From contig NC_058514.1 in assembly GCF_020382885.2 (NCBI RefSeq), forward strand, positions 13,998,249 through 14,062,248: a stretch of 64,000 nt of DNA. Reading direction: 5' to 3'. The notes under the pieces are model-generated. The model made no database searches, was not told where the DNA came from, and saw nothing but the letters and a program-made list of their open reading frames with translations. A program made the translations under genes and the position numbers. Positions within the stretch are counted from its first letter, which is position 1. Each line of letters starts with the position of its first letter. Source of the stretch: Scatophagus argus. Lineage: Eukaryota; Chordata; Actinopteri; Scatophagidae. Below, piece after piece: positions 1 through 53,587 of this stretch.

Positions 1-3774
<3,774 letters not shown>

Positions 3775-26052: not shown

Positions 26053-29000
26053 ATGGACTCCACCGTCTTCGCGGCCCTTTCCAAAGGTTTGTCCGCTTTT
26101 ACAAAAAGGAACCATTAAAATTGCATTTGTTGGAAAACTTTGCCTTTTGCGGTAGTTCAGCTGACGTTGACTTTTTAGTCGTGCTCATAGTTACAAGTTA
26201 GCTTAGAAAGCTGAGTTCGTATTCGCTGAAACGTTACCTTGACATGTATTATTATGCATTCCATGTCGTTTTGCATGCACACCGTCTTATGAATGTGAGT
26301 AGTGTATATAACTTGCAAATTAAATAAACGGGGAGAAAGTATATCTGACTTGGTTTTTGCAACAGTGTTGTTATTGAACATGCACTCAAGTGTTTCTAGT
26401 AAGGTTGCATTCAACACACACCTCTGTTCCTGTACGTAACAAACAAAAGTATTCTGCAATATGCACATTCGTGGTGTTTTCTATGCTGTCTATCATTAAG
26501 TTAATGAAAAACATCTGTATTAACAGATTACTTCACAGAACAGAGAATACATGTGTTTGACCGCTGATCTTTTCTCAGTCCAGTATCCAGTATATAGGAT
26601 AATTGGGACATTTATTAAAGGCTGGCTGCATCCCTTTTCAGTCTGAGTTCTCTTCTGTTTTTCAGGTGACCCTTTACCTCTGGCATCGTTGCGCCTACTT
26701 GTCCCACCCCTCCAGCTTATGACAGCATCCATGTGGCAGGTTCTGAAGAAACAAGATGTCATGAACTACTGGAAAGTGGCAGAGCATGTCTCTTTGATGA
26801 TGGACATGGTCCCAGAGCTGCTCATGTACAAGCACAGGATGCAACTTAATTTGGGATTAAGGGCCAGGGTGGGTACCAGGGGAGGTTTTGTGATGATAGA
26901 CATCTTGTGATATGTGAGCTGTGTTTTGAACACATGAGTATTTTGTTGCAATGTTTGCTTTTTTCTCCTCATCAGTATATTCTTGAGTTGTGCCGAGGTG
27001 AACAGCTCCAGGAGCCTGAATTCATTTTGTCTCACCTGGAGAAAATGAAGCCTCAACATCCCACTCTGGTAGATTTAAGGGTCTAGTTTTATATTAAGCT
27101 TAATTTAGCTGTTTGTAATGAATATAACACACCAATTCCAATTCAGTTCTCCGGTAATGACTTGTACTTGTACTATGTATCATTGCCCCCACTGCAGATG
27201 AAAGAATCAGGAGAGGAGGAGGTAGCAATTAACTTTCTTGATCTGATCCAGACTCTGCTCAAAGATCCTGAAGAGAGACAAGATTTTTTCACGGTGAGGC
27301 ACTTACAACTCTGTGGCGCCAAATCCAGCAGCAAATGTTACTTGCAATTATAGATTACAGTGTGTATGAAGTTTGGTTCTGTAAGTTGCCCACATTCAGT
27401 TGGTTGTGGAATTTAGCAGGTGGAACAAAGTGCTTGGAAACATGATATTACAACATTATATGTGACACTTTAGCTGACTTCAGTTTTGCACTAGCGACAC
27501 TGTAAAAAAGTTTATAATGCAATCTCTTTTGGTTTTACGAAGGAGGTCTTCCCTGCTGAGTATGGCCCTCAGTATGACAGTGATTTGCAGACGCTGTTTT
27601 CGGAGTTCCTCTTTCGGCTGGCTCAACTGTTGCCAGTTCCTGACCTCGAGCAGGTGAGGTGTCATTGTGTTATGGTTCTGATAGAAAGATTTCTCACCAT
27701 GAAAGGATAGTACTGAAGTGATACTGCTGAATGCATTATAGTTATGCAACAGCGGCAAATTGAAAAGTGGCTGATGGTGTGGCTCCTTGTTCCTGTGATT
27801 ATGGTTTTAATGTGCCATATGTCTGCCAAACCCTAGCAATGCGCCATGATTCAGTAGCATATGACACTAAAACAGTGGCGCACCAATGGCAGCCGCTGAA
27901 CATTAGTGTTTGCGAGTGAAATAGGAGTGATAAGCAGTTGATAGCTGATAGGAGTCATTTGATGTTTATAAATTTCACACAGCACAGTATTTCATTATCA
28001 AATATGACATATTTCAGTAAGGTGGGCAAGATGTGACAAATGACTGTGTCTCAGAAAATATATTCAAAAATGACTCAGATAATTATTTTCTGTTATTTTA
28101 TTTCAAATAATTCACAAGCTATAAACTTTTAATCGAGGTCAGCTCAATAAAGGTTACTTTTATATTTATTATGTTAAATAGAGTAGAGTGTGCTATACTT
28201 TGGTGAATCTTCCAACTCGAGAACTCGTGCCAATTCCAATTTCATTCATTTTCTACAGACAGTTTCCTGGCTTGAAGCGAACTGCTCTGTGTTAGAGGAT
28301 TGTGTGAATTCAATCTCTGAGCATACAGACCTGCTAAATTTGCTCCAGCACCACAAAAACCTTGGCCATTTAGAACAACATGGTAGGTGACTTCACATAG
28401 CCACATCTACCATGTTTCACTGTTAGTGTAGAGGACAGAACTCCGTGACAATAACTATGTGTCCTTCACGTTCTTTGTGCAGTTCCACCTTCTAGCATGG
28501 GCGACAGGATCCTCTCCTCCCTCTCTGCAGTTCCCACTAGCAGAATGACAAAACCTACAGAACTGCCCAGCCAATTGGAGTCACTGCAAGGCCTCAGTGA
28601 TGAGACGCACACTGTATCGTTCGTGGACAATGTAGCAGTTGAAATAATCACAGTGACAGATTATGCAGAAGTTGAATTAGGCACAAGCACTGACATCGAG
28701 GTGGTGATCGGAGAAAACTGCTGTGAAGGAACAGACACTGACACAGTGGCTGAAGATTCACTGGTGGTGCTTCCTGATAAGGCAACCAGGGAAGAGGAAG
28801 AAGTTGTTGAAGCAAGGGAAGAAGAAACGCAAGAAAAGTCTGGAAGTGGTTTGACAAACATCATCCTTCCAGAAGTAAACTCGGATGACGTAGCGTCCTC
28901 CCAACACAAAATCTCTCTGGGACCCCATGACTGCCCGGAGTGCAAAAAGAAATTTAAGTTTGCCTCTTCTCTAATTGCCCACAGGGTCATCCACACTGGT

Positions 29001-32000
29001 GAACGCCCCCACCACTGCAGTGACTGCGGTCGCCGCTTCTCTTTCAGGCAGTCCCTTGACAGGCACAGAAACACTCACAAAACTGGACGCAAGTACAACT
29101 GCGCTGTCTGCGGGGAGACCTTCCATTCTTTGTCAGCCCGCACAGAGCACAAACAAACACACATGCAAGATGGCGTTTACACGTGCCATCTGTGCAACAA
29201 GAAATTCAACTGGGAGCTGGCACTTGCAAGACACCTGAAGTCTCACACTGATTGTCACATTGCAGGCAAACCTACAGAGAGCCATAAAGATGACCAAGAG
29301 GTTGCTGTAGGTGGTGAAAGTGCCGACGAGACTCCTGTTACGCCTTCTGAACCTGACTGCCAGGTGCAGGCAGATGATAATGGTGATAGGGAGCCGGAGA
29401 GTGCAGAGGTTCAGAGCAGTGAACATCCTGTCCCTGACCCTAAAGGCATAACCTCTGAACTTGACAATAAAGTCATTTCCTTGGTGAAGGTTCGCACAAG
29501 TGGGCGCAAACGCAAACCTACCATGAAGATCCAAGTGATAAATTTACAGAAGCGAATGGCAACTAAAGGAAAGAAGCAGCTCACTAAGACGAGCCCTCCA
29601 GAGCTGAAGCCTTCATCCTTCAGCTGGTAAAACTGTCTTTTCCTCACTCATTATTTTTGATCTGTCTTTGTCACCCTGGTTAGGGCTGTTTATTGAAAAG
29701 AATCTGGCGATACAATGCGTATCACGAAACAGAGTTTGTGATTCAGTATGTTGCGATATATTATGATATTGTAACCAAGGCAGTGTATGGTTTCATAGGC
29801 TTGTGCTTACGCTAGCATTGTGTGATTTACCTCTGGGCTCAGTTGATGTTTCATTGGAGTTGAAGAGTCAGATAGATTGCAACACTGCCATCTAGCTGTT
29901 GGGGAATTAAAAACAGCACAAAATGAACCAAAGCCACAAATCTGTGCATGTAAATGATTAACTAAAAATCAGTAGTGTTTTTGAGTATTGATACAGTATC
30001 ACAAAATGTGATATTGCAAGACTCAAGTGTGTTGATATCTTCTTCCAACCCTAATCCTGATTTTCTCACAGGTTTAGTGCATAGAAACAGAATGTGCTAT
30101 GTTATGTTCAGTAGAGCATAAAATGGCTGTGGTGGGACATCACTGTTTTTCCTTTCTCTTAACCAGTACGGAGCACTCTTATGGGTCATCTTTGGTCTCA
30201 TCAAAGGACAGTCATGAAAGTGAGTGTTCATTTTTATAAATATAACTTTTTGATCTTTCATGCCACAATTACATAACCAGAGATAAAAAAAAAACAACAA
30301 TAATTCAATCCAGTTCCAAAAAAAAATTTGTATCCCCAGGAGGCAATTCAATAAGTTGTTAGCATCAAGAAGGAGTCAGAAGTTTACCTTTAGTGAATAA
30401 TTGGCAGGTTCTGTATGTCCGTACATTTTCTGATAGGCTTTATAATTTGGCCATATGCTATCTATATTGTAATATTGAAATGTATATGTGAGCATTTGCT
30501 GCTTTGTCATGTATTTTGGTAAACTGAGTATCTTTAGGTTTTCCAGTATCTCTCTAAACAAATTGTTTGCAATTTAAGTTCAATTGTGAACAAATGGTGG
30601 AGAAATTAGTAATTTCACATTTGTGATTTATATGGTCCTTCATTAATAGCACCTATAAACATGAAATTCCAAAATGTAAGCATGTAGTTTTGCATGTTAC
30701 TTTTTTGCTCCAGTTTCTAATGTCTTTGTTTTTCTATAAGGTTCTGTAGCAGATGGTTCCTCAGCTGCGTTCTCCTGCCCTAAGTGCTCCTTCAACCACT
30801 CTGAAGAAGCACAAATCGAGCAGCACGTTGACAACGTTCACTCTGTTGAGACTGAGGATGACAAGCTGTCTCCTCAGACCTTCGCAGATGAAGAGGGACG
30901 TTTTACTTGTCCAGACTGTGACAAGAACTTCAAGTTCCAATCCTTACTAAAAGCCCACCAGCGCATCCACACAGGCGAGCAGCCCTTCCTGTGCTCTCAG
31001 TGCGGACGGAGGTTCTCCTTCAAACAGTCACTGGAGAGGCACAAGCAGACACACAAATCTGGGCGCAAGTATGAGTGCCTGATCTGTGGCGAGTTTTTCA
31101 AATCCCTAGTTGCTCAGAGGGAGCACAAGAACTCCCACATGGAGAATGGCGAGTACCTGTGTTCAGAGTGCGGCCGGGCATTTGCGTGGAAGTCGGCACT
31201 GGTGAGACACCTGAAGACCCACGGCAAGGATGCTGACAAGGTGGAGCGTTCTTACAAATGCCCTCGCTGTGACCTGGCCTTCAGCTGTGCCAGCTACCTC
31301 AACAAGCACCTTCAGACTCACAGAGAGGAAAGGGTGCACACCTGCAACTGTGGAAAGAGCTTCGCCTACCGGGCAGCCCTCACGGCACATCAACGCATCC
31401 ATCAAAAGGAGCGGCCGCACACATGTATGCAGTGTGGGAAGGGATTCCTCTACAAGGGTGGGTTGCTGAGTCACATGAAGATCCACTCTGAGGAAATGCC
31501 TTTCATGTGCTCTTTCTGTGGTAAGAGCTTCAAGAGGGAACGGAGCATGAAGAAGCACGAGCGCTACCACACCAGGGAAAACGTTTTCAGCTGCTCACAG
31601 TGCGACAAGAGTTTTGTCTATAAGGCAACTTTGATCAGACACGAGCTGACTCATTCAGGGGAAAGGCCGTACCTCTGCTCCGACTGTGGGAAGGGCTTCT
31701 TCTCCCACGCTGAGCTCCTGAAGCACGAGCGCTTCCACACTGGTCACAAGCCCTTCCAGTGCCCTCACTGCGGCAAGAAATTCACCCAGTCTTGCTACTT
31801 GACCATCCACCTGCGTTACCACACCGGAGTTCGGCCGTATTCCTGCACAGAGTGCGACAAGAGCTTCCTCAGCGCCAACCGCCTGAAAAGGCACCAGCGA
31901 ACGCATTCGGGGGAAAAACCGTACCTGTGTGTAGAATGTGGCAAGGGATTCAGGCAGTCATATAATCTGAAAATGCATCAACGAACTCATATCATGAAGT

Positions 32001-32011
32001 TAACAGAATAA
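26053..32011 (+). CDS. ZNF-A: TIN2-like N-domain plus two blocks of C2H2 zinc fingers, 1042 aa
   Basis: Exons 26053-26086, 26666-26868, 26976-27068, 27198-27293, 27543-27653, 28259-28382, 28483-29626, 30167-30219, 30741-32011 (3129 nt, in frame). Residues about 12-215 resemble the N-terminal TRFH-like domain of shelterin TIN2 (TINF2_N): MWQVLKKQDVMNYWKV, VPELLMYKHRMQLNLGLRAR, EYGPQYDSDLQTLFSEFLF, LAQLLPVPDLEQ. An acidic linker follows, then four C2H2 fingers (residues ~370-477), a K/R-rich linker, and a second block of 14 finger-like units (residues ~630-1036), the first divergent and one with CX1C spacing. Such proteins are nuclear DNA-binding regulators; the target is unknown. If the intron after 29626 is retained, TAA at 29628-29630 ends a short isoform. 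No gene symbol recognised; paralogous to 48933-53587. Confidence 0.8.
29680..30054. mobile_element. Non-autonomous element with short inverted ends in a ZNF-A intron
   Basis: Starts TTAGGGCTG and ends CCAACCCTAA, which are imperfect inverted copies. The interior repeats GCGATAC/GATATTG motifs typical of abundant teleost MITE-like repeats. No ORF. Target-site duplication not clear; class not assigned. Confidence 0.45.
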
Positions 32012-32202
32012 ATTGAAATTACTGACCAGGAGATAAATACTTTGAAGGTTTAAAGTGTATGCAATTAGTTTAGATTGAGGAAAAAGCTACTATTGATGGA
32101 ATATAGCAGTGATCTGCATTTAGTATACCCACGTTCCAAGGTTCATGAATGAATATTTTTTTCCCCATTATACTGAAAGCATTTGATTTCCAGGTTGTTT
32201 TG

Positions 32203-32208
32203 ATTAAA
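32203..32208 (+). promoter_or_regulatory. Candidate poly(A) signal (ATTAAA) of ZNF-A
   Basis: ATTAAA about 190 bases after the ZNF-A stop. Another AATAAA at 32007-32012 overlaps the stop codon itself and is less likely to be the one used. Confidence 0.35.
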
Positions 32209-32320
32209 GCACACTTAGCAGAGTAATGTTTTTCAATATGCATTGTTTTTTTTTCCCTCACTACCTTGGCTCAAGATCTTCAAATAATGAACAGCAAAAA
32301 GGTTTTACATAAATCCAGTC

Positions 32321-32326
32321 TTTATT
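32321..32326 (-). promoter_or_regulatory. Candidate poly(A) signal of apex1
   Basis: AATAAA on the minus strand, about 620 bases after the apex1 stop; together with the ZNF-A signal it suggests closely convergent transcript ends near 32210-32320. Confidence 0.45.
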
Positions 32327-32946
32327 GTGGGAATGTTTTATAACAAAAGATTTAACACTGGTCTGGAACAGAAGCTTAAAACATTTTCGTGCTTGAACAA
32401 GATACATTTGCTCTTGACAGCTGTGGTTTCATTTCAGTCATTAACACAAACATTGCTGTAACCAGGTTCTGTGGCATAGAAACCTGTGTCTCAGGTCAGT
32501 AGTAGTAGTAAATAAGGAGCTACGCTGTGACAGTTAAGCAGTCAGTCACAGGTCAGTTGAAAATCAGCTTAGACATCTTTTGAGTATTTAGTGTTGAATC
32601 TTTACAGAATTTAGGTGTACATCACAGGGTTTACTGACAAACTAATTACATGACGACGACAAATCGGCATTGTGAATCATTTTGTGGAGTCATTTTATGA
32701 AAGTTTCATGTGAAAACAGAAAAGACTACACAACTAAACTACTGCTGAACCTACTGAAAGAGTGAGTTTGGTCAGCGCTTCATCCATGAGAAAGATCGAG
32801 AAACGTTAAGACTTTGCCACCAAAGTAGGCAATGTCTCACTCTAAAAGAGCACACATATACAGTAGTTTCAGCCAAGTTGGAGCAGAGGTACTAAGAAAA
32901 CAGCGAAGGCTTTGCAAAGCAGTAGCCCTGTCGACCAGGCTGTGAC

Positions 32947-34290
32947 CTACATGGCTATGTGTAGAGTGATGGGGCAGTGGTCGCTTCCCTTCACCTTGTT
33001 GCGGATCTTGCTGTCGCACAACCCTGGCAACAGACTGTTAGACAGCACAAAGTAATCGAGCCTCCAGCCCACATTCTTTTCGCGGGCATTCATCATGTAG
33101 GTCCAGAAGGAGTAGGCGTGGGTCTGCTCGGGGTAGAGCTCGCGGAAACTGTCGACGAAACCAGCCTCCAGCAGCTTGCTGAAGCCTTCGCGCTCCTCAG
33201 GGGTGAAGCCTGGGTTTTTCTTGTTCCCCTTGGGATTCTTCAGGTCGATCTCCTGGTGTGCAACGTTAAGGTCACCACACAGCACCACGGGCTTTTGCAT
33301 ATCCAGCTCGCTCAGGTACCCCCGGAAGTCCACATCCCAGGTTTTGCGGTAATCCAGGCGCACAAGGCCTTTGCTGGCATTTGGCACATAGGTGGTCACC
33401 AGGTAAAAGTTAGGGAACTCGGCAGTGATGACGCGGCCCTCCTTGTCATGTTCTTCTTTGCCTGGAGGGTTAATAGAGGAGAATCAGCTGAATGCAGTTA
33501 CTTGAACCAGGCTGAAAGACATGTTCAGTAATTTCCTGTATATGTAAAACAGACATATATTGCTACCAATGCAGACCTTTGAGATGAATGAATAAGGTCT
33601 TCTATTTTGGTCCGGTATTGACTATTAATAAGAAGACTCACCAATGCCATAGGTGACTTTGACGGGTTCAGTCTTGCAGAGCATGGCCACACCACTGTAA
33701 CCCCCCTTTTCATCTGACCCCGCCCAGTACTTGTAAGGGTACTCAGGCATTGAGGTGATATCAGCAGGGAGGGATTTCTCTGCGCACTTTGTCTCCTGCA
33801 GACATAAAACATCTGGATCCTCCTCACGCACCCACTGGAAGGACAAACACAACCGTTAACTGTTAAAACAAGTCTCAAGACTAAAGCTGACAAATTTATG
33901 TTGCTCAAATTTCTCAAGGTCACTGCAGACTCACGTCCAGGCCGTTCTTTTTCACCCAGGCCCTCAGCCCATCCACATTCCATGAGGTGATCTTCAAGTT
34001 GGCATTGCGTCCATCTTTGCTGGTCATTTTGTCGGGAGGATCATCATACAGTATTGGAGCTTCTGGTTCCTTTTGCTTCTTTGCTTTCTTTGCAGAAGCT
34101 GCGAGGTGCAAAGTCATGAAAGTGGCAGGTCAGAAGTATTTTAGTTCAGAAAGTCTATTCATAAGTTATTATGTAATATGTAGAGAACAGTATTTATTGA
34201 AATGTTTTTATTAGTGCATGATGCAGTACCAGAGCCTGAATCGTTTTCCGCATCTGCAGAAGCCTCTTCTGCCTTCTTGCCTCTCTTCAT
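32947..34290 (-). CDS. apex1: AP endonuclease 1 (APEX1/Ref-1), 310 aa
   Basis: Four coding exons: 34230-34290, 33935-34098, 33642-33834, 32947-33461 (933 nt). APEX1 cuts the DNA backbone 5' of abasic sites in base-excision repair in the nucleus. The N-terminus is short, basic and lysine-rich ([22 protein letters not shown]), fitting a nuclear signal and the redox region. The exonuclease III fold follows with all motifs: [15 protein letters not shown] (Asn/Asp), [10 protein letters not shown] (catalytic Glu), [28 protein letters not shown] (Asp and Asn), [19 protein letters not shown] and [13 protein letters not shown] (Asp300, His301). Numbering is eight lower than human (318 aa), from a shorter N-terminus. 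The start ATG is in the first exon shown; a non-coding first exon probably lies upstream. The gene is divergent from osgep. Confidence 0.97.
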
Positions 34291-36919
34291 ACTTGAACTC
34301 GGTCTGACTGCAAACACGGCTCGCAGACACACAACACGTACACACAACAGCACACGCGCCGCTGCAAAAACAGAAGAGAAATCAATTAAATTACTCTGTT
34401 CATGTCAACTGTCAAAGGTTTTCTCCACGGAGTCTGGTCCGTGACACGAGCTTAAACCACTTTGATTTTATGCGACCTGACTGAATTTGCATTCATCATG
34501 TGTATGTGGAGAGAGCAAGCAGCATGTGGCAAGTTAGCAGGAGTCCCAGTATAGCTGATTAGTTCAGAGCCATAAGGTGAAGCCTCCCTGTATTTTATTA
34601 TGATGCAGTAGAGTGGAGAGTTGTGCACACAATACCAACATATCACTCTGACTGATCTTCACAAGAGAGTATTCTCATCATTTAGGAGTCGGTACAGGTT
34701 AGGCTGTCTAATGTCATGTTGCAAGGTACAATTTTTAAATATGATGCCTTGTTTTGATCTGAAGAAATATTCAGTTAAATGGTTGTTGTGGGAAATAAAA
34801 GCACAATTGTGTCACATTGTGGCATTGCTACGCTCCCATAGCAGCTGCTGACTCAAGTGCGAAAAACTGGGGGTTTTAATTTTTTTTTTTTAAACACTGG
34901 CCAATCCTACTAGTTAGCTGAGTTAGGTGTGCGCCTTGTGGTCCTATAAGCTGACTCTCCCCACTGGGATCCTCTCATCCTGAGTGTTCCTGCACTAAAG
35001 GTGTGAACACCAATAGTCCTGTGGTGCTTCAAGCTCCCTGTCCAAGCAGAGTCAGCTGACAGAACCTAATATACCTCTGGCAAAGCCAAGCTAACCCTTG
35101 AAAACACAAAGTCAAACGATAACACAAACTAAGGAATCAACTGTGGCAGACCAGCAACTCCAGCGCTATACAAGGCAAAGTTTGTGTTTGTGTCAAAGGA
35201 GTCTGGAGGCTTTGGAGAGAGAAATATTACAGCTTCTGAAAGGGCTGTTGACAGCGAGGTAAAGCAGTGAAAATGTTTTAAATATAGCATGCACTTTAAA
35301 TACAGCTTCCTACACTGAATATGGATAAGTGTCTGACAGGATACCACGTCAAAAAAATCTGAACCTGTGCCCAAGATAAGTGATGGACAGGATATTCAAA
35401 TTTTAAGTTTCTCTTTCTCTTCTCATTTCTCTTCTGCAATTTCTTATTTATCAGCCAACAATAATACTACAAAAAACTTAAGCCAAATATCAGCCGATGT
35501 GTCGGTGGATATATTTATGTGTTAGCTGAGCATCTAGAAAAAGGCGAGTCTCAAAACTTGTGTAGTAACACTCACAGATGGATATCAACAGCAGTACTGA
35601 CCCGTCGGATGCTGGCCAAATTACGATGTCTCCCTCCCTCCGTATAAGAAATAAAGATGCGAATACCTGCGTTTCCCAATTTCACAATAACATCAAATTT
35701 ACACGTATGCATTTGTTTCATAAAAGGTGCTTTTCAACCGGAATAAAGTTACGTTTCTTATACTTGCAAAACAGGAAGAGCGCTAAGACGTTGCTGGTCA
35801 GGAGTTATAGCTAAGAACAACTAAATGTAAATACGTGTGAGCCACAGAACGCATAATTAACAGCATACATGTAAACCTTAGAAGACATAAAATCAACAAC
35901 AGTAAAACATATTTAGCCGTTTTATCTGTTGACGTTACACAGCAGGTTAAATGACAAGTTATGCTAACGTTAGCTTCTCCTATGTGACAAAGAGGCCAAA
36001 GCCAGCAGCAGACGGCCTGCGCTGAAAATGAATGGAGAATAACCAACCAGCTACTAATCAGCTTCTTACACAGCTTATTTGATTAATCAATAAATGCAAA
36101 TGTTGAATAACGGAAGCGATATTTAAGTATGTTAGAGGAAACGGAGATGCAAATTATCTTACTTGCACAACAGGATGCAGAGAGCAATCTGTACTGCTTC
36201 ACAGGCACTTCCCCAAACAAACACACACACACAGACTCCTGCTCGCCTCACACAAAAAAGCACAGCAAAGACTACTGGCCACGTGCTTGCTGTACTTCAT
36301 GACTGCCTAAATTTGTGCCTGATTAAAAAAAAAACTCCGCATTTTTATTCCTGTTTAATATAGATTGACACAAACACACAACGCTGACTGCTCTAACGCA
36401 CATTACATTATTCTGATACGATGCTATATTAAAACATTATTTACGCTAAGCATTTTGGTGAGGCCAACTCCACAGCTGTCAGTGTTTGGGACCCCTAGCT
36501 TCATGGCGTTGTGGAGCTGCACAGGGTAACTGTAGCAGTAAATTTGTTTTGTTTAAAGGTTTATCTGGGAAGAGTTTGGATTAATGTGAACTACGAAAAG
36601 GAAGAGAAAAGGTAGGTTTACGTATTCTGTTATTCAGACCTGCGTTAATTAAGATAGTTTTACTTAGAGGGTATGCTACCTTTGCTAGCATAGCAGGTAC
36701 ACGGCCATATAGGAAGCTTTATTTTGTTTTGGGTTTTTTTTTTAAATATGAATGATATACAAGAATGCTTATCACAAAGACAAAATCATACACAGGTAGG
36801 ATAAACGCGACATATTCACTCTACTGCTCTAATAATAAACCTCTTTGCATCCACGCAGTGACAGGATGTATTAGTTTTCACTGTCTTTTCTCTTTCCTCA
36901 AAAATGTTTCTTAGCCGCC
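34291..36919. promoter_or_regulatory. apex1-osgep divergent intergenic region
   Basis: About 2.6 kb between the two start codons. It should hold non-coding first exons and promoters of both genes; a splice acceptor (TTCTTAG) six bases before the osgep ATG shows osgep has at least one upstream non-coding exon. No repeats or coding exons were recognised. Confidence 0.5.
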
Positions 36920-41829
<4,910 letters not shown>

Positions 41830-43197
41830 CCAACATCTTGGTGGTATAGACGTCAACGTAGCAGGTCTGTGATGACAGGTGGTGTTGGAACTCCTAAGTA
41901 CCTCTGAAGGGGCGCTTCAACCCTGGGAAAATGAGTCAGATTTGTTCTGAAGTTTTTCTGTCCCATCTCTCCCTGTTCACTTGCATTACAGTTTAAAGCT
42001 TCACAAGGTAATTTCACTCTTTTGGTGGCTGCAGATGCTGTAGCAGCGAGTGTATTTAGATTTTCAAATTTTGTACCTGCTTGTGTTTCAGATGAACTAT
42101 AGACAAGAGAAAATTCTGATGGTGTTTTTTTGTACAATTTACATCCCTTTTTGTGTGGCTTTTCTCTTTAAAAAAAAAAAATCCCTGGCACTCTGATATT
42201 TTACAAAACTGGCTGTAACACAACATAAACAGTAAACCTTTGTCACCAATTCAAAGAAACATTAACAGAAACAGGTGATGTCAGCAGTAACTCTCCAATG
42301 AAAAATAAAACAAATACTGAGAACTTTCAAGTTTTATTCATTTTTATTAAGCAATACTGTTCTTACATTCCTCCTTTCTCCAGTGTAAATTTTTTTTTTT
42401 ATTCAATAAATTCTTTTCAAAATTCAACATACCAAACGTGGTGAGATCCCTTACTCATGGACTAATGAGTAACATTCACTCAATCAGGGAACCAAATAAA
42501 AACAAAGTAACACAGCATTAAGATGTGACAGGGGAGGGAGATTGGGGTGGGGGGGGGGTGTGAAGGTTTGAACTTCACTGCGCCTTTGACTACACCCCTC
42601 TGTAAACTGAAGACACAGATAGACAAGTCCTCTGCATACATTATAACCATAAAACTCAAGCAGGTACAGGACAGACATTCTTCCGTTTGTAATGAAGGGG
42701 GAAATAAATCACTCTGGTGAGGGTTTCTCGCACAAAGGGATTGGTCACAACTGATTTTTCTTCTTAACAAAGTGCTTGATTGACCACTCGCTTTACAGAG
42801 GACACAAATAAGGTTCAATAAAACTGCAGCTTTCAAAAAAAAAAAAGAGGGGGGGGGGGTTAAATTACAGCTCCTCCGAGATTGTTAAAAAAAAAAAAAA
42901 AAAAGGCCAGCTCTACACATACAAGCTAAAAATGGAAATGAGAGGCGACGAAAACATCTGATTAATTAAGGCAGGCTTCCTGTAAGGCGTTAAAAAAGTC
43001 CATTGCTGTAATATCTCAAAGGAGTTAGTCCAAAGTGTCTCAGTGTGGCTTTGCGTGAAGACATCATCCTGAGTGCAGTGTGTGTGAACGGGACTCAAAA
43101 ATGTGTCCATCTTTACGTGTTTCAATGTGCATGTAGGTGTGTGTTCTGTATGCGTTTATATTTATATATATATATATGCTTTGGGTTTCTCACACTG
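41830..43197. other. Convergent 3' region of osgep and the NUFIP2-like gene
   Basis: Holds both 3' UTRs. AATAAA occurs on the plus strand at about 42304 and 42406; AATAAA on the minus strand occurs near 42334. G-runs near 42545 and 42848 and an A-run at 42887-42904 are low-complexity. No additional gene recognised. Confidence 0.5.
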
Positions 43198-46100
43198 CTA
43201 GGCTGGGTGCTCTTGGGTGTCCTTGTACCAGACAACCTTTTTTGGAACTGCAAAACAGGAAAACAAAATGTCAGAAAGAGATGTTGAAGCGTGGGTACAT
43301 GTCTGATAAGTCAAAAAGGACTGTCCGTCACATCAGTTTTTTACAATAAGATGAAAACAATTGATTGTTTTACAATCCTGAACTTGGTGTCCGGCCGGCC
43401 ACCACACCATGGAACTTTATCCACCACCGTGGCGACTAAGTGTTTGTACCACAATAATCATGTAATAAAACAAAAAACCTATGGTGAGAGTATATACTGT
43501 GTTTTGATATCATTTACAGGCATGCTGCTTCTGTGTCTGAGTTACACACCCAGGGACAGGGACTTCATGGTGCATCAAGGTGTACCCTGTAAACTCAGGA
43601 ATCTATTCTTGAATGGCCATGAAGGCTGTTTAAAATAGAAAAGATTTTATTGCAGCGTTTGTTGAAGAGTTAGAGCTGATAACTATAAACTCAAAGTTTA
43701 GAACTTGAGACTTGCCAATTGGACTCGCTTTGGACTACAAACTAATCATTTGGCTGCTTTTACTGTCCACTGGACAAATGCAGGTTTTTATTTTGTTTAG
43801 ATACATTTCCTTTATATTGTGGGTAACTCACTCTATATTTACTCATACTAGTAGTGAACAATTAATTTCAGGACTCTCTGAACTCCACAGATCTACATAA
43901 TGCAGCGACCAAACAATAAGTGGTTTCTAAAGTAGACTTTACCACAAAATGCTGTCATAACGTCTCCTTAACACTTGTAAGGGGGCTAAAGTCGATTTCA
44001 CAACATTCCATGTTTTCTTCCTGACAAGCAGTGTGACAGCACTGACTGGTTTATTCTGATTCAACCTACCTTTTTTCTGTTTGTTGCAGATAGCATTCCA
44101 TTCTGAGGAGAGGAAGACAAGCGAGTGTTAGACAGAAGACACTAACATGAACATTTTTAATTTAAAACAAAAATTTGGCAGGGCACCATCTTAAAGGCTA
44201 CTCCTCGCACTCACCTCTACTGTGATAGTTCAAAGCCTCCATTAGATGGCGACAGCTAAGCAGCAGCTTCCCATTGCTCTCATCTGCATCGGGGCGTGTG
44301 GTAGTGGTGACGGAGGTAGCAGCTGGAATGGGTGTTTCTTCGTGGGGCTGCACTGTGAGAACCGTCTCAAGCAGAGGGTCTGCTAACTGTTCGGCATCTG
44401 TGGGCTGGTTGGGGAGGGCAGCGGGACGAGCGCTGGAGCCCTCTGAGCCCGGCCTCGCCTCGCTGATGAAACTGAGACCCCACTGGTTCTGTAGCAGCAC
44501 GCCGATGGCTGGGCGGTCCTCCTCCAGCGCTCCACTTGTGGCTCCCGCCTTCACCTTGGAGGCGTAGCTGACGGCGGGCTGCAGTTTGGCAGGGCTGTCC
44601 TGCACAGGGAAGGCAGGTGGAGGCTTGAGGAGTGACAGACTGTCCTCCACCCACCTCTCCTTTTGGTTAACCTTTTGAGGCCGCTCGCTTACTTTGCTGA
44701 CCCCCTTCTGACTATCTCTGCGGAGGCTGCGGCCTTTCTGCTGTTGGCCCTTGCGTTCTTTTTCCCTGCGGAAGCTGAAGGTGTGTGCGTGGCCGGGCCC
44801 GATCAGGTCGCCTTCAGGTGAGAGTTGTCTGGGCTGTTGGTCACCTCCGGAAATACAACCTCCACCCCCACCACCTCCACAGTTTCCGGAACCAGGAGAC
44901 AGGCGTCGATTGCGAATATGTGGTTCAGAGTTGGTGGCAGAAACGAGGACTGCTGGGTCACACAGAGAATCGGACTCACACACGGTGTTGCTTGCTTCCC
45001 ATGTACCTGAAAGAGGTGGTGACATGTTGGTGGTTAAATATCAGATATTATCACGTTTTTTTTTCTGCATATCTTTGTTTAGTATGAAACAATCACAACT
45101 GGAGAACATTAACACTTAGTCTTAGCAAATAGTGTTAATTTTTTTTTGCCTCATTAACTTAGCAATGACTGCACCGTGTGTCCAAACAGGTGCTTCATAC
45201 TGCAAATTCTTCACTTGATAGTGGTTCAGAAAGGATTTTTTCACTTGGCTAAACAAATATCAGGAGTGGCTGGCACATTTCCATGTGACCTCACTGTGCA
45301 GAACAACTACAGCCCATACTGCTGCCTATTTGCCAGCGTGAGCAGAAAAGAGCAAGACGACCCGATAGTGGATTGAGAGGGTGGAACTGCTGGAGCAAAA
45401 CATGCCACGTAGAGTGTGTGTTCTTCTGACACTGAAAAATGACAATACACAAAGCCAAAATTGTGCACTAGGTAGTCTGCTGTAATGCTGAAAGTAGATG
45501 AATCCATCTTCATAAGCCTCATCCCCTATCTATTTAATCTGCAAACACATTTATCAAACAAAAAGGCCAAACGATGTTTAGCTGCTTCTCAAAAGTGACA
45601 GTCGCCTTATTATCCCTTGCTCGTGTCACTGTGAAATGCGTTTGAGTTTTCATTAGTCAGTTGGACAAAATAAACAAAATGAAAATTTCACGTCCGACTC
45701 TCCAAGTTCCAAACTTGGGGATTTCTCACATTAATCTGACATTTTACAATCTGAACGAGCAATAACAACAACAGACAGAAATGAAAATAAGTGAAATGAT
45801 GACAATAACTGCAAGGTGCGAGTCTACATTTAATTCACGTAAGTGTCTATAAAATGTATGACTGCTGAAACGAGTCGGTAAGCCTTACTGGCAACTCTCA
45901 TTATGTCACCAAACTTTAATCAATGTTTAACAGCAGTCTGTGTCATCCAGTCACACTAGATGGTGACGGGACGGTCAACTTATTTTTTTCTAGTTGAGTC
46001 ATTTTCTGTCCACATGGCACAGCAGACACTACTGCTCGTTGTCTTTAAAAGGGAAAATCAACTCGATATACTTTCTCGTTGTCTATAAGGATGAAAATCA

Positions 46101-46761
46101 AAACAGGTGTTTTGGGGGCTTACAGAAGTCGAAGGGGGGGCATAGAGTTAAAGAACTGAATGTACCCGTCCTGAATGGCGTGCCCGCTCCTAAGCGCCAC
46201 ATTTCAAAAAAAAAACCCGATGAGGTAACGTTGGTTTACCATATCGGGGACTCAGTCTCAAGCGCCGCGACAGAAATTTCGAGAAACAGGCTGACTGTAC
46301 AGAGCTCACCAGACTCAGGCTAAAAGAGTAACTGGGCTGCTTTATTAGCTTCTCGCCCGATACAACAACATGTTCTGCTTAATGTATGCGATGCTGGCAG
46401 CTAACAAGACAGCAAAAGCTACGAGTCAAAACCGGTGTTAGCAAACTTGAATTAGCAGCGTCACGGTGCGCCGAATTAAACTCGACACTCTACCCCTCAG
46501 CCATAACAACATGGTCAATATAGTTCGATAATGTATCAAAAACAAAAGCTGTCGTCGATGAAATGGCTTTGTATCTGCCTTATCACGAATTAACAGCAAG
46601 CTAGCATGTTAGCCGAAGTCAAAGTTTCGTAACCCCCATTCAAAGGGGCTAACACCGTTGCTAACACCGTCGGCAAGACAACAAAATAACACCACTGAAA
46701 GTAAAGAATTTCACTCAGATAAATCGAAAAGTTGTACAAACTCACCTGTTTTGATATGCAT
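43198..46761 (-). CDS. Short NUFIP2-like protein, 296 aa
   Basis: Four exons: 46746-46761, 44215-45006, 44070-44102, 43198-43247 (891 nt, all in frame). NUFIP2 is an RNA-associated partner of FMRP. Three blocks match NUFIP2 in order: LLKPPPAFPVQDSPAKLQ...VSYASKVKAG, then VLLQNQWGLSFISE, then a C-terminal part spread over three exons, ALNYHSREWNAICN followed by VPKKVVWYKD (NUFIP2: IVYHTKEMESIWN and DPKRIITYNE). The glutamine/histidine-rich N-terminus and most of the middle of NUFIP2 (about 695 aa in human) are absent, replaced by a Gly/Ser-rich and basic stretch. It is therefore a compact paralogue rather than NUFIP2 itself. The start MHIKT is supported by phase and a GT donor. Function is inferred from the family only. 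Confidence 0.75.
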
Positions 46762-46861
46762 GTCTTTTAGTTCAATGTGTCGCGGAAGGTAAACCGTTTA
46801 GTAACTTTTGTTTACAACGTTAAGATAACGACGCCTTGCTGGATGAGTCTTGTGTGGCCAC

Positions 46862-46868
46862 CCGGAAG
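46862..46868 (+). promoter_or_regulatory. ETS-type site near the NUFIP2-like gene start
   Basis: CCGGAAG about 100 bases upstream of the start codon at 46761, in a GC-richer patch. It fits ETS/GABP sites of housekeeping promoters; use is inferred. Confidence 0.3.
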
Positions 46869-47836
46869 CGACATGAGAATGTGGGTGGGACAGGAAGTCC
46901 CTGTAGATAAGCGGTCCGGCGGGAAACTTGGAGGGAATTTTAATATTCAACCCTGATTATAATAATAACCCATGCGATAACCACGTGGTAATAGGGACCT
47001 ATCTGGATGATACCGATATTATTTCTTTTAAAAGCAGATGTATTATAGACAGATAGTTAAAGGTTTTATTAAACGTAACGCTGTAAACGCAGCAACAAAT
47101 TATTGGGTTTCTTATGGGTTACGGCTCAGAAAAATTTCCGTAGAACAAATTATACAACCATGTTATGGGATTTATATAAAATGTAATCTAACAACAATGC
47201 AAGAAAAAAACAATTGGAAATGCTTATTGGGAGAAGTAAACCGAGCTCTACTAAAGTTCAAACTCGACTTATTGTCTAAACAAATATGATGTATTTTTGA
47301 CCTCTGATTATAAATATGCTGGAAGTTGCTAAATGAGTCTTGTGTGCATATAAATATGCTGGAAGTTTTTATCAGCCAAGCTGCTCATTGCACCATCGTG
47401 CTATATATTATTTCTCTGTTCCACAGCCAAGAAGTAGCCTGGTAGAAATGTCTGCCGTCACAAAAACCTCTTTATATGACTGAACAGGAATAATCAGGTA
47501 ATCTAATCTGCTGATCCAAAAGATCAGATCAGCCATCATGAATGTAGCAATAACGACATCTAAAAAAATCATGTAACTGCAACCTGAGTTCACAGACTCT
47601 TACAGATTCTATCAGTCTTGAGTGGATTACACGCATTCTTCCATTGTTGCTCTTTCCTCTCATTGTTTCATTGAATGTACCATCCCAAAACACCACCTTT
47701 AATCAGTTTACACAGAAACCTGTAATCAGTCACAGTGGAGAGTGAGCATACAAAGCTCGACCATCCAGTGACACTGCTGTTTCAACATCGGCATGGCAAT
47801 TTATTCAACACTACACAGATGGATAAGTTATTAAAG
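46869..47836. other. Intergenic stretch, no gene recognised
   Basis: AT-rich sequence between the NUFIP2-like gene and a lysine-rich ORF. It includes a pair of 19-bp direct repeats. Plus-strand ORF 47038-47289 (83 aa) has no recognised domain. Confidence 0.5.
47309..47367 (+). repeat. Two direct copies of a 19-bp motif
   Basis: TATAAATATGCTGGAAGTT occurs at 47309-47327 and 47349-47367, spaced by 40 bases start to start. Confidence 0.8.
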
Positions 47837-48196
47837 TCACAATAAATAACATGAGAAAAACCCACCTTGGACATGTGAGCAGTCCTCGTCTGATGCCACA
47901 GTTTGGTGAGCGGTATCATCTTTAAAATCTTTAGCCCTTTCTCCTTTTTTCACAGATCTTTGTGACTCTTCTTCACTGCTCCTTTTCTGCATGTCATTAG
48001 CCCACCTTTTCATAACGTTGTGTTTGATTATTTGAATTTTGCTTTTGTCTTTCTTGCTCTTATTTTTCTTTTCCTCCTCCTTGTCTAAACCAGAGACCTC
48101 TCTGCTCTTATCACTTTCATAAATCTTCATTTTCTTGGGTTCTTCCATGGCCAGTTTGGCATCTTTTCTGGTCCCGTTTCTCCCTGGAGCTCCCAT
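47837..48196 (-). CDS. Unidentified lysine-rich ORF (119 aa) or exon
   Basis: Not recognised. Open from ATG at 48196 to a stop at 47837. Very rich in Lys, Glu, Asp and Ser (DKEEEKKNKSKKDKSK, KRSSEEESQRSVKKGERAK) with one less charged segment, IQIIKHNVMKRWANDMQKR, that could form an amphipathic helix. A good donor AAG/GTGGGT at 47866/47865 would let it splice on after ...SHVQ, so it may be one exon of a larger gene, but no downstream partner exon was found. It lies upstream of the NUFIP2-like gene on the same strand. It could be an orphan, a nuclear charged protein, or a remnant. Confidence 0.35.
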   Translation of the reverse strand: MGAPGRNGTRKDAKLAMEEPKKMKIYESDKSREVSGLDKEEEKKNKSKKDKSKIQIIKHNVMKRWANDMQKRSSEEESQRSVKKGERAKDFKDDTAHQTVASDEDCSHVQGGFFSCYLL

Positions 48197-48932
48197 TGTC
48201 CTTTCGTGTTGGCTCGGTCCTGCTCTTTGACTTTGCTTGGCTTTATCGCTTTTCCCACACTGTTTTGCCGCTGTCCTCCAGGTTCTCCACCTCCTCTCTA
48301 CGCTCTTTGATCGTTTACCTTGTGAAATGTCCTTACTAAATGTTATCTATCATCTCTGTCTTCTTTGGCCCTTTGTAATAAACACTTTAAGCACAGACAG
48401 ATGTTCAGAGTATTACTTAAACAAACTAAAACGTAATTACTGGAATGTTGTATAGGCAACACCCTTTAACCTTCCTTGGTAGCTTTGCATCACGGAACTC
48501 AGAACTAATAGAACTTACAGAAAGACTGCACAGTAATCACCCAAATCTGTCAATACATCCCTCTTAAGAGACTCTCTTAGCACTTATATTGCAACACTAA
48601 ACATGCCCTTATTTTTTGCTGATCACCTACACCCGCTTGTTGTCCTATGGACCCTGAACATAGCTTGTAAGTTACTTTAATCACAATCATCCACTAAATG
48701 AATGTAATCTGCCTTGTTTGATCCATTTGATTACATTTATCAGCAACACACAAAAAAACCTGACATTCTTATGTTCACCAAACCAGATCGACCTACACTT
48801 CCTCAAAGATAGTTTTCACACAACAGAGTGTCACCCACATTAAAACAGGAAAATAAAACTATTCAACCGGTTAAAGAGGGTTTTTATTTTTAAAGATAAA
48901 GAAACAATCATTATCTTCTAATACATGCACCG
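48197..48932. other. Intergenic stretch, no gene recognised
   Basis: AT-rich; should contain the 3' UTR of ZNF-B. A TTTATT (AATAAA on the minus strand) near 48884 is a possible poly(A) signal. Confidence 0.45.
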
Positions 48933-51900
48933 TTAGCTCATATTAAATGATTCCACAACGATGTCCTTCTCCACGTGTGTGCGCGTGTGTTTCTTCAGCC
49001 TCGTAGACGTAGAGAAGCTCTTCTTACAGAACAGACAGCTGTGCGGCTTCTCCCCGGTGTGTGTTCGAACGTGCATGTTGAGGTCGGAGGAGCACCTGAA
49101 CCTCCTGTCGCAGTAGGAGCAGGGATAAGGCTTTTCCCCTGTGTGGATCCGTTTGTGGAGCAGGAGCTCGCCAGAGGTGAGGAATGTCTTCCCGCACTGG
49201 GAACACTGGTGGGGCCGTTCCCCCGTGTGAGTCAGGTTATGCCGGACGAGCGAGGTCGACTTGGCGAACCTCTTCCCGCACCGGGTGCAAGCAAATGGAC
49301 GCTCTCCTGTGTGTGTGTTGAGGTGTTCACTCTGAGCTCGCTTGGTTTTAAAGCTCTTGGAGCACTGTGGACAGCTGAACGGCTTAAAGTTACTGTGGCT
49401 GCGCTGATGCCTCACCAGCTCCCCGTGCGTGAGGAATGTCTTCTCGCAGGTGGCGCAGACGTACGGCCTCTCGCCCGTGTGGATTCGTTCGTGGCGTGTG
49501 AGGCTGGCCAGCTGGGTGAAACTCTTCTCGCAGTAGGAGCACTGGAAAGGTCGCTGGCCGTTGTGAGTCAGCAGGTGCCTGTTGAGGATCTGGAGCTGCG
49601 TGAAGCTCTTCCCACACTCTGCGCAGGGGTACGGACGCTCCCTGGTGTGGATCTGCCGGTGCTTATTCAGAAGCCACACGTGCGTGAAACTTTTCCCACA
49701 CTCGCATGCAAATGGCCGTTCCCCGGTGTGTTTCATCTGGTGTCTCTTGAGGTCTGATGCTCGGCTGTATATTTTTTCACACAGGGAGCATTTGTACTGA
49801 CGCCTCACCATGTGCCTCTGCCTGTGCTTCAGCCGATCCAGGATGCTGCTGAAGCTCTCGTCGCATTTCTGGCACTTGTACTGACTTTCCGCTTTCTCCA
49901 GTGCCTCTTCTGCTACTACGACCTCTGTCGTTAGATCGAGGGGAGGGTTGCAAGTCTGGCCACAAGGGGTTCGTTCAAAATGCAGCTTGAGCAACCCCAT
50001 CTGCGTGAATCGCTTGCCGCACTGGGAGCAGAGGAAGGGTCGTTCTCCAGTGTGAATGCGCTGATGTCTGGTCAGATCCCAGGAGTTCTTGAAGCCCTTG
50101 GGACATTCCTTGCAGGTGTACGGACGCTCCCCCGTGTGTGTCCGCTGGTGACGAGTCACGTCTGAGGCACGTGTGAAAGTTTTGCCACACTCATGGCACA
50201 TGTGGGGGTCGGGCCTGTCGTGGATGGGGAAAGGCTTTGGGAACTCTGGACGTTGGACCTTCTTCTTTGGGGTCTGAGCTGCCTCTGTAGCCTTCTGCAG
50301 TTTATTGTACTGTTCAGGGTGACTGTGCTCAATGTGCTGCAGCAGGTAGGACTCCTGCATGTGGAAGAATGGACACTCAGAGCAGGCAAAGACCTGGGAA
50401 GACATCTCCACAGAGGTACCTATGTAAAACACAGAAAGTACTGTGTAAGTCGCTGTCCACCTGCAGCATTTCTGGGTTCAGATACCCGGTTGAGACTGTG
50501 GTTTCTAGCTTTCACATCCAGGTCTTCCCATGTGCCTTCTTTCACAACAAGCACTTTCTGTGCTTAACCCCAGACATAACTAATGAATGGGCTAATTAGG
50601 GTTCCTTGAGGAGGCTCCAAGGGGTACAACAACCCCCAACTATATTGGTCACGGTTTTTAATACTCTTTATGTAATAAAGCACCAAAAAGCAAAATTCTT
50701 ATCAGATGGGGGACCTTGGGACAAAATGTCAACAAATGGGGGTCTAATTTATGTCAGTTTGGGTGTCCTTGACTTGATAAAGTCCATGATCTGCCAGTTG
50801 CTCTCTATTAATGTGTCAATATGAGCCCACATGCATGAAACAATTCCTGTCGAGACTGTTGACATGAAATGACAGAGCAGATGTTTTAAAGGCGCTACAG
50901 GGGTGACACTACTGGAGAACATCAGTGAGTTAGAGAAACCAGTTCAGCCAAATAGTGGAAAACAGCATGTTGTTGTTGTTGTTGTTGTCTATACTGAAGG
51001 TTCAATAATCATTTAACTGTTTATTTATCCAGCAAACCTTCACAAAAAAAAGAAAAACAATATATGAAGAACAATATTTAAAGTCTTGTGCTGTTGCCTG
51101 ACATGCATGAAACATTAAACAACATGCATAAAGAAAACATAAATACCATTTTTTTAAAAATAAACCAACAGCACTTTAACTGTTTGACAGTCTTGCACCT
51201 TTATTGAAGCTAAACATGTAAAAATATAAATAAATCAAAGCCCTGCTGCTGTTGAGGTAAGAAGATGCTCATGTGTCTTATAAAACTTCATATTTACCCA
51301 GTGAAACTTTTGGATTCTATAATAGTCTATTTAACAAAGTGGGGCTGATTAAAGTGGATGGGAGAGATGGGGGCTTAAGACATGACCGGTGCATCAGGTT
51401 TACCTTGTGCTCCGAGGTGCTCGAGGGATTTGTGGTGTCGCAGGAGTGACCTCAGATCGTCAGGACTGGAGAGCGCTTGCCAGCAGTCCCTCAGTACAGA
51501 AGGAGCAGAGGTCAGCCATGAAACAGTCTATTTATGGACAAAAAAACAAACATGTCAGCAATCTGACCAGTCAGAGTCAAATGTGACAAAGCTCAGTTCA
51601 CACTTACACATGCAGCATCTTATCTACTATGATTCCTCAAGGAGATAATCGTCTGTCCTGAAGCTCCTAGTGACCACAAACTGACCAATACTTTTACTTT
51701 TAGATAGACGCAGCCAGTATTCAACCTGGGAGGTTGAGCTTTCAACTTTAACAATTTTAGTTACACAATTTACATCTCTGACCACCAAATACCATCTTAA
51801 GCAGGTTTCAGGTAGCAGCTGCTGGAATGTGGTATCATTTCCTACCTGACTGAGGTCTGGTACAGGTAGGAGTTTCTCCAGTTTAGAGAGAAACTCCCAC

Positions 51901-53587
51901 GCAAGGAGCTGCATGTCTGTGTCGTAGCTGAGGCCATATTCTGTTGGAAAAACCTCCTGGGGAACGAAAAGGGTAGCAGTTACTAAAAATCCACCTGTGG
52001 CCGGACATGGTGACAAAAAAGTCGCAGAAAAACGACTCTCTTTACAAAGTCAGATGGGTTACACCAGCTGCCTTGCCTGGTAAAAATGCTCCCTCTCTGC
52101 TGGATCTTTCAGCAAAGTTTGGATGAGCTCCACAAAAATGGCCTCCTCTGCATCCACCTCCGCATCGCCACTCTGGAAGACAGAGTCACTGTTACTGGGG
52201 ACCACCTCCAAACAACATTATCAGTTCCAACTGGGAATTATAACAACGTAACGGTGGAAATTCTCACTTACTCCCGTGTATCCTGGTGGGCGGATTCGTT
52301 CCAGGTGAGGCTGTATATGTAAAATGTTGGCTGTTTCCTCATTCCTGCACAACTCAAGAATAATCTGAAGTGAAAGGCACAGAGAGATCAAAGAGGTGTT
52401 CCTTCAGCAAAACACAGACTCAACTGTATCCATCAAATGTGACACTATTGTATGATTAGTAACTTTTTTAGTCATGCGAGCTCACGTTAAAGTCACCGAC
52501 TCACTTTCGCTCTCAGTCGAAGAAGCAGTTTGCCTCTTTGCTTTGGACTGAGCAGGTCTGGAACCGTTGCTGTCACCAGTGTCACAAACTCAACGAGCTT
52601 TTCATAATCGAGAACTTCTCTCCGCTGAGCCACCTGCCACATCGCTGCAGAAAGCAGCCGCAGAGGAGGGATCAGCAGCCTTAATGATGACAGCGGCAGG
52701 AATATATCTGCACAGTCATGGACAAAGACTTCTTGTTACATGCCAGCGTACCATTGCTTTTCATTGTGCATGTTTTCTTCCACACACTTCCTTCTACAGA
52801 GGGCCTGGTGTGACTATTTGAGTTGAACATTTAAGTTTATATCTGTTTTAAAAATTACAAACGTGAAAGGCCATAAGTAGGTTATCAATGGGTCTTTGGA
52901 GATTATCCTGCCTCACACGTTTTCTTAGAGTAAACCCAACACACCTCCACAGTGTATATACTGGAGGGCAGGTAAGAAAACAATGACAGTAAAGACACGC
53001 AAAAGCATGACGACATGACAAACTTGTTGGATGAAAAAGATTTGCAAATTACAAGATTTTTAAAAATCTGTACCATAGAGTTCAAGTGTTTAGAACTGTA
53101 GTGAGGATATTAAACTGCTGTTTCTGTGCGTTTGTGTTTTCTATCCCTTTGAATATTATTAGTTTTTAATCTACTTAACCATATATAATGTACTGCACAA
53201 GACACTCCTCTCAGACACCACAAACGAAGAACGAAACAAATGTTATTATCACTAATTTAATTTAGCTTAGCTAGCTACATGTATAGCAAAACTGTGGAGA
53301 ATGCGACTTAACGGAGAACAGCTTTGCATGCTGTGGTGTTCACAAAGGAAACTCAGTTCTTTCATTTACCAAAGAACAATGTTTATGTCCTTAAATACAC
53401 TAAATGCCGCCTCAATTCCACGTTTTGCTCTGTTTACTTGAGGTAAGTTAGCAACAATCTCTGCTGTTCGCTGCGGCTACAACACTGAGAGGCAGCTTGT
53501 TCACTATTAGCTGCGACAAAATCATTAAACAGTCCAATAAAACGGACCTGTATTTTCCAATTGTTCGGAACTGCCACTCGTTTCCAT
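48933..53587 (-). CDS. ZNF-B: TIN2-like N-domain plus 15 C2H2 zinc fingers, 717 aa
   Basis: Exons 53548-53587, 52505-52707, 52272-52364, 52077-52172, 51846-51956, 51404-51527, 48933-50419 (2154 nt, in frame). The first exon ([13 protein letters not shown]) was chosen because its phase, donor and ATG fit. Residues about 15-215 are TINF2_N-like: [69 protein letters not shown]. The last exon encodes 15 finger-like units starting with a divergent one ([19 protein letters not shown]); the fourth lacks its last His (ends ...RTPC) and the seventh has CX1C (CECGKSF). TGERP linkers support real DNA-binding fingers. Exon sizes 203, 93, 96, 111 and 124 are identical to ZNF-A. The intron after 52077 starts with GC. 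Nuclear transcription factor by family; targets unknown. Confidence 0.82.
50969..50989. repeat. (TTG)n microsatellite
   Basis: Seven or so TTG units in an intron of ZNF-B. Confidence 0.85.

Follow-up and report, generated by a model that had tools for sequence, protein, structure and literature searches.

The window analysed here, a stretch of 64,000 nucleotides (nt) from Scatophagus argus (contig NC_058514.1, positions 13,998,249 to 14,062,248), contains two genes, ZNF-A (26053-32011, + strand) and ZNF-B (53587-48933, - strand), in which a domain of the type known from the shelterin protein TIN2 stands before arrays of C2H2 zinc fingers. We propose that both genes probably belong to an old family whose DNA-binding proteins carry the TIN2-type TRFH domain at the N-terminus as a docking module, and in which the domain is no longer, or never was, a telomere scaffold. 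According to this model, the fingers would pick the DNA site, while the TRFH groove, which is peptide-binding in TIN2, would hold either a peptide from some partner outside shelterin or a motif that follows the TRFH domain in the same or a sister protein. A partner bound in this way would be a cofactor that is brought to the finger-chosen site, as happens with KRAB or SCAN domains. The proposal rests on the features of the family, and it makes a role in gene regulation more likely for ZNF-A and ZNF-B than one at chromosome ends.

The exons of both genes were placed by hand via splice signals and checked by translation, with splicing inferred from the sequence. ZNF-A starts with a 34-nt exon carrying the start codon (exon 1, 26053-26086), which is in frame with exon 2 (26666-26868, 203 nt), where the TINF2_N domain begins. 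The domain continues through exon 3 (26976-27068, 93 nt) and exon 4 (27198-27293, 96 nt), the profile match ends in exon 5 (27543-27653, 111 nt), and exon 6 (28259-28382, 124 nt) completes the N-domain, ending in phase 1. On the opposite strand, ZNF-B comprises a 40-nt exon 1 with the start codon (53548-53587), the TINF2_N exons 2 (52505-52707, 203 nt), 3 (52272-52364, 93 nt), 4 (52077-52172, 96 nt, with a GC donor) and 5 (51846-51956, 111 nt, profile end), and exon 6 with the end of the N-domain (51404-51527, 124 nt). Exons 2-6 of the two genes are thus equal in length and phase, as an earlier note on this DNA had observed. The same note had likened the N-terminal 200 or so residues to the TRFH-like domain of TIN2, and comparison with the Pfam profile bore this out: the joined exons 1-6 yielded a single match to TINF2_N (PF14973) over profile positions 1-149 in ZNF-A (E = 3.7e-46, 157.6 bits) as well as in ZNF-B (E = 1.1e-49, 169 bits), the curated cut-off being 29.4 bits. 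Furthermore, the ZNF-A domain matched the crystal domain of human TIN2 (5xyf_A) in a phmmer comparison (4.9e-10). Neither KRAB nor SCAN was matched in the two N-domains by Pfam at E up to 10.

Behind exon 6, ZNF-A offers two finger exons. Exon 7 (28483-29630) encodes the post-TRFH motif MGDRILSSLS and four C2H2 fingers and can be read through to a separate stop; onward splicing would be possible from a donor after 29626. Exon 9 (30741-32011) encodes 14 fingers and a stop, and is in frame with exon 6 either directly or via exon 7 and a small possible exon 8 (30167-30219), the weakest part of the model, which links exons 7 and 9 in frame. In ZNF-B, a single finger exon (exon 7, 48933-50419) encodes 15 fingers and a stop, and the post-TRFH motif was not found in it. 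This exon and exon 9 of ZNF-A share similar beginnings, the first finger unit being atypical in both. Matches to PF00096 were obtained for exon 9 (5.5e-58), for the frame of exon 7 (4.4e-12) and for the ZNF-B array (4.3e-59). Phase-matched acceptors are present at all three finger exons, which can be joined in frame to exon 6, in agreement with the predicted fusion of a TIN2-type domain to C2H2 arrays. The contact residues of the four fingers of ZNF-A exon 7 are nearly identical to those of fingers 2-5 of exon 9 and stand in the same order (FS[SL]A, FQSR, S[SV]AE, W[LS]AR; 0 of 1000 shuffles), so the finger exon of ZNF-A is duplicated. ZNF-A may hence yield two proteins, or one long protein via exon 8; exons 7 and 9 are possible alternative terminal exons that would give one docking domain two DNA specificities.

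By the finger recognition code, Arg, His and Arg at positions -1, 3 and 6 would read GGG. We inspected the contact residues by eye for telomeric targets and saw no supporting pattern: no finger of ZNF-A or ZNF-B carries this combination, and no two-finger repeat was apparent.

A search of the genome with the TINF2_N profile, in which introns were ignored, returned 31 exon-level matches at E<=0.001, a level at which none of 14 control genomes matched; at E<=10 there were 48 such matches, and one of the 14 controls matched, below the cut-off. Only the best candidates were scored, so the family comprises at least the 14 genes found here. They lie on five contigs, with seven on C22 (including ZNF-A and ZNF-B), three on C13, two on C21 and one each on C23 and C24. 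Outside the family there are a divergent gene on C7 and, at C22:8.573 Mb, an isolated exon-2 fragment. Fourteen stretches were retrieved, covering the 12 family genes outside the window, the exon-2 fragment and the C7 gene. By a pattern scan in the three frames of the domain strand, 10 of the 12 retrieved family loci have fingers behind the domain; adding ZNF-A and ZNF-B makes 12 of 14, with one order and one strand for domain and fingers throughout. One of these genes, C13_10067 (C13:10066000-10075900), has its fingers in broken frames and no detectable exon 4, and may be a pseudogene; exon 3 of the C24 gene was not found. A different DNA-binding part follows the domain in a gene at C22:8.38 Mb (C22:8372500-8382400), where three open frames matching Myb_DNA-bind_4 (1.4e-18, 1.2e-16 and 1.7e-11) lie behind TINF2_N and no fingers occur within 4.8 kb after exon 6. 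Here the join was modelled as far as the exon with the post-TRFH motif, and the Myb/SANT-coding frames are putative further exons. The C23 gene showed neither fingers nor Myb within the 7 kb examined; a single finger-like match precedes its domain, and its long 3' open frame matched no Pfam family.

Exon lengths were compared in 11 loci by a script that started from the ZNF-A and ZNF-B exon peptides and took the best-scoring splice pairs (C13_10067 and the C7 gene were excluded). Exons 2 and 5 measured 203 and 111 nt, respectively, in 10 of the 11 loci each, exon 4 measured 96 nt in eight and exon 6 124 nt in seven, while exon 3 measured 93 nt in four of the 10 loci where it was found. C21_2723 alone has all five lengths of ZNF-A and ZNF-B. 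The shared lengths are ancestral and not special to the pair. The strongest sign that the TINF2_N-type N-domain behaves like a portable module is that different DNA-binding parts follow one and the same N-domain. This domain also looks to be under purifying selection. The ratio of nonsynonymous to synonymous divergence (omega) was 0.10, 0.16, 0.16 and 0.27 in four of six chosen pairs, a rough measure at synonymous divergences (dS) of 1.05-2.57, and dS was infinite or saturated in the other two. The earlier note had offered two functions for the domain, docking to shelterin-like partners or co-option as a module for protein interactions, comparable to SCAN or KRAB. Since C2H2 fingers, Myb/SANT-coding frames or neither follow the domain across the 14 genes, and in view of the rough signal of purifying selection, we favour the second of these; the first is disfavoured on the grounds given below.

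In the exon that follows exon 6, a motif resembling GDxILSSLSLPP is present in 12 of the 14 family genes (shuffle mean 0.18 genes, maximum 2), as counted with a pattern derived post hoc from the same sequences. It occupies exon residues 8-13 in the 11 genes with a firm exon start; C13_10067 was counted from an open frame without a firm start, and ZNF-A by its exon 7. A stricter form of the motif, seen earlier, occurred in eight of 14 genes (shuffle maximum 1). Besides ZNF-B, the C24 gene, whose exon start is uncertain, showed no copy. Because the Myb gene and the finger-less C23 gene carry the motif too, it seems to belong with the N-terminal module. Our guess is that the ILSSLSLPP-type motif might be a ligand of the TRFH groove, in cis or in trans. 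A bolder version of our model is conceivable, although we lean slightly against it: in fish, the TRFH domain could have become an exchangeable effector unit that precedes C2H2 fingers in twelve genes and Myb/SANT in one, with the attached motif as a new groove ligand, and could form a further class beside KRAB, SCAN and BTB that came from the telomere machinery.

The divergent gene on C7 (C7:20388500-20398400) gave a TINF2_N match of 2e-16 after its exons had been joined. Its exons 3-5 (102, 102 and 114 nt) consist of whole codons, as in the family of ZNF-A and ZNF-B, and no fingers were found within 6.4 kb after exon 5. In phylogenetic trees, human TIN2 grouped with this gene, apart from all 14 family genes, with supports by the Shimodaira-Hasegawa-like approximate likelihood ratio test and the ultrafast bootstrap (UFBoot) of 98.8/97, or 93.3/97 with a corrected C7 model; ZNF-A and ZNF-B were thus placed away from human TIN2 and not as its orthologues. 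The only TPP1 match of the genome at E<=1 also lies on contig C7 (the two at 20.4 and 24.6 Mb), and TIN2 and TPP1 of zebrafish are both reported on chromosome 7 (PMC3032778). We regard the C7 gene as the best candidate for the true, fast-evolving fish TIN2. Against this assignment stand its very long branch, so that the pairing of two long branches may reflect attraction, and the change of two of three TPP1-contact positions (Ala, Leu and His at 15, 152 and 153). A relaxed pattern for a TRFH-binding motif matched the C7 gene 14 times and a strict one not at all. With C13_10067 set aside, 41 alignment columns that include a human residue are conserved across 11 or more of the 13 remaining family members; human TIN2 has the identical residue in 22 of them and the C7 gene in 14.

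Docking to shelterin would mean that the domain binds fish TPP1 and/or TRF2, taking the finger proteins to telomeres or shelterin parts to internal sites. The domain is a genuine TIN2-type domain; even so, we consider this explanation improbable, and docking of TPP1 by ZNF-A or ZNF-B in particular unlikely. Each of the substitutions A15R, F152A and E153A is reported to abolish TPP1 binding by human TIN2 (PMC8262337). With Leu12 as the first aligned human residue, the residues at 15, 152, 153 and 160 agree with the numbering of that source; Trp198 falls outside the alignment. Position 15 is Ala in none of the 14 family genes (Met in ZNF-A, Leu in ZNF-B), in contrast to the C7 candidate, which keeps Ala. 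Phe152 is retained in one of the 14 and replaced by Trp in six (Ser in ZNF-A, Trp in ZNF-B), so that two of the three contact residues are changed in each of the two genes. The fingers, too, lack the GGG-type residues and the two-finger repeat that were looked for.

Zebrafish supplied a further comparison. Three TIN2 homologues were cloned, of which zfTIN2-1 alone is reported to have bound TPP1, while zfTIN2-2 is described as not co-precipitating with zfTPP1; zfTIN2-2 and zfTIN2-3 appear there as TIN2 homologues with 'different C-terminal sequences', and the word zinc is absent from the main text (PMC3032778). We compared these proteins by translating the printed primers. Residues 2-210 make up the zfTIN2-2 fragment; its terminal peptide, DMKSLLEHHT, matched exon 6 of five of the 14 family members, including ZNF-A, ZNF-B and the Myb gene, at 0 of 200 shuffles; the corresponding values were 17 of 200 for human TIN2 and 158 of 200 for the C7 gene. 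The zfTIN2-3 fragment begins with MWQVLQHKSL, a stretch from mid-exon 2 that eight of 14 members match at 0 of 200 shuffles. zfTIN2-2 was therefore probably a fair test of a family relative, with a negative outcome. This result and the replacement of Ala15 in all 14 genes make TPP1 docking unlikely and, together with the separate TIN2 candidate on C7, count against the shelterin option of the earlier note. Some observations weigh against our own reading. Glu153 is retained in seven of the 14 genes, ZNF-A and ZNF-B among them, which could leave some contact of the TIN2 type in place. The start of zfTIN2-2, MEALWTNKIED, matched no family member, so that zfTIN2-2 is tied to the family by ten residues and by its length. 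The zfTIN2-3 fragment starts at the internal MWQV and thus lacks the Ala15 position, making it an unfair test whose failure proves little.

The domain might instead pair family members with each other, as SCAN does, without an outside partner. SCAN operates among many paralogues with different fingers, and the present family likewise has many paralogues whose fingers differ. The TRFH domains of TRF1 and TRF2 homodimerise, but the TRFH domain of TIN2 itself is reported to bind peptides of TPP1 and TRF2 (PMC7617103), and we judge a pure dimerisation module to be rather unlikely. Retroelement silencing, as a counterpart of the KRAB and FiNZ zinc-finger proteins, would be a special case of the docking model we favour, with which its odds overlap; taken by itself it has a small chance of being correct. 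It would fit the wide variation of contact residues among paralogues, the higher nonsynonymous divergence of finger exons than of N-domains in both tandem pairs (0.40 vs 0.25 and 0.64 vs 0.28), and the report that cyprinid FiNZ proteins repress long terminal repeat elements (PMC10547256). Yet the family is small, with 14 genes, and old, the dS of the N-domain being 1.05 and 2.35 in the two tandem pairs. Finally, TIN2-like exons and finger exons could be separate genes that are neighbours by chance, as their splicing was deduced in silico. We hold this to be very improbable, given that domain and fingers keep one order and one strand in 12 of the 14 loci, and given the joins between them: in all 15 joins examined at 12 genes, an acceptor of the needed phase, expected by chance for one acceptor in three, was among the three best, and in 14 it was the best or tied best. 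The exception was ZNF-A exon 9, where the acceptor of the model tied for second.

The relationship of ZNF-A and ZNF-B to each other was less clear-cut. The earlier note had proposed a local duplication plus inversion. We found no support for such an event, as dS between the two domains is saturated, no direct or inverted repeat of at least 60 bases occurs between 26000 and 53700, and the fingers of ZNF-B are collinear in their contact residues with those of C22_6458, 7.6 Mb away (0 of 1000 shuffles), instead of with those of ZNF-A exon 9 (522 of 1000 shuffles). Domain identity in the DNA models was 50% between ZNF-A and ZNF-B and 52% between ZNF-B and C22_6458. By BLASTP, the array nearest to that of ZNF-B was C22_6458 (400 bits). 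Sisterhood of ZNF-A and ZNF-B is favoured by the best domain trees, which pair the two at low support (UFBoot 28 and 29), and by the array nearest to ZNF-A exon 9, which was ZNF-B (306 bits), followed by C22_6458 (295 bits). The approximately unbiased test accepted both pairings (0.489 for ZNF-A with ZNF-B, 0.479 for ZNF-B with C22_6458). If the two genes are sisters, the duplication would be old.

Compared with known systems, ZNF-A and ZNF-B share the full-length TINF2_N domain with TIN2 (TINF2; PF14973), but differ from it by the C-terminal C2H2 fingers, by the family-wide replacement of Ala15 and, mostly, of Phe152, and by the position of the family apart from human TIN2 and the C7 gene in trees. 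With SCAN and KRAB zinc-finger proteins they have in common an N-terminal domain that does not bind DNA, followed by a C2H2 array; their domain, however, is of the TRFH type and is distributed across five exons. Many fish proteins carry a TINF2_N label in sequence databases. Zebrafish genes with TIN2-like domains had been cloned before, and the primer-encoded peptides of zfTIN2-2 and zfTIN2-3 match the family at exon 6 and at MWQV, respectively (PMC3032778). The cyprinid FiNZ proteins, too, are fish proteins with an N-terminal domain and a C2H2 array, yet FiNZ is described as a 28-residue sequence in a single exon of about 700 zebrafish genes, as opposed to some 200 residues in 14 genes here, when compared by architecture (PMC10547256). 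The main texts of PMC10547256 and PMC11603059, both about zinc-finger families of fish, do not name TIN2 or TINF2, and we found no description of a zinc-finger or Myb architecture behind a TIN2-type domain in the full texts searched, which came largely from outside the subscription journals. What appears to be new is thus the TIN2-type module before a C2H2 array, with a role that we did not find described, and the ILSSLSLPP-type motif. A common basis for classifying zinc-finger proteins is the domain that precedes the fingers. If our reading holds, a docking domain of the shelterin type at this position would connect the evolution of transcription factors with a fold from telomere proteins and provide a ready test of how the TRFH groove changes its partner. 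It would also call for caution, since a fish gene that bears the name of TIN2 does not necessarily encode a telomere protein.

Among the neighbours of ZNF-A and ZNF-B, Pfam identified SelO and an APEX1-type endonuclease. One short sequence pattern for OSGEP gave no match, before Pfam detected TsaD (OSGEP) in three of five open frames tested, consistent with the earlier description of the pair as flanking apex1-osgep. Elsewhere in the window, a NUFIP2 match was found at 44201-45040 (-), matches to Neurexophilin and NXPE4_C at 847-3771 (+), and a fibrinogen C match at 7093-7449 (-). Open frames at 16290-18047 (-) matched FISNA, NACHT, NOD2_WH and NLRC4_HD2 and, with a PRY-SPRY match at 12738-13355 (-), the frames in 12738-18047 resemble fish NLR immune genes.

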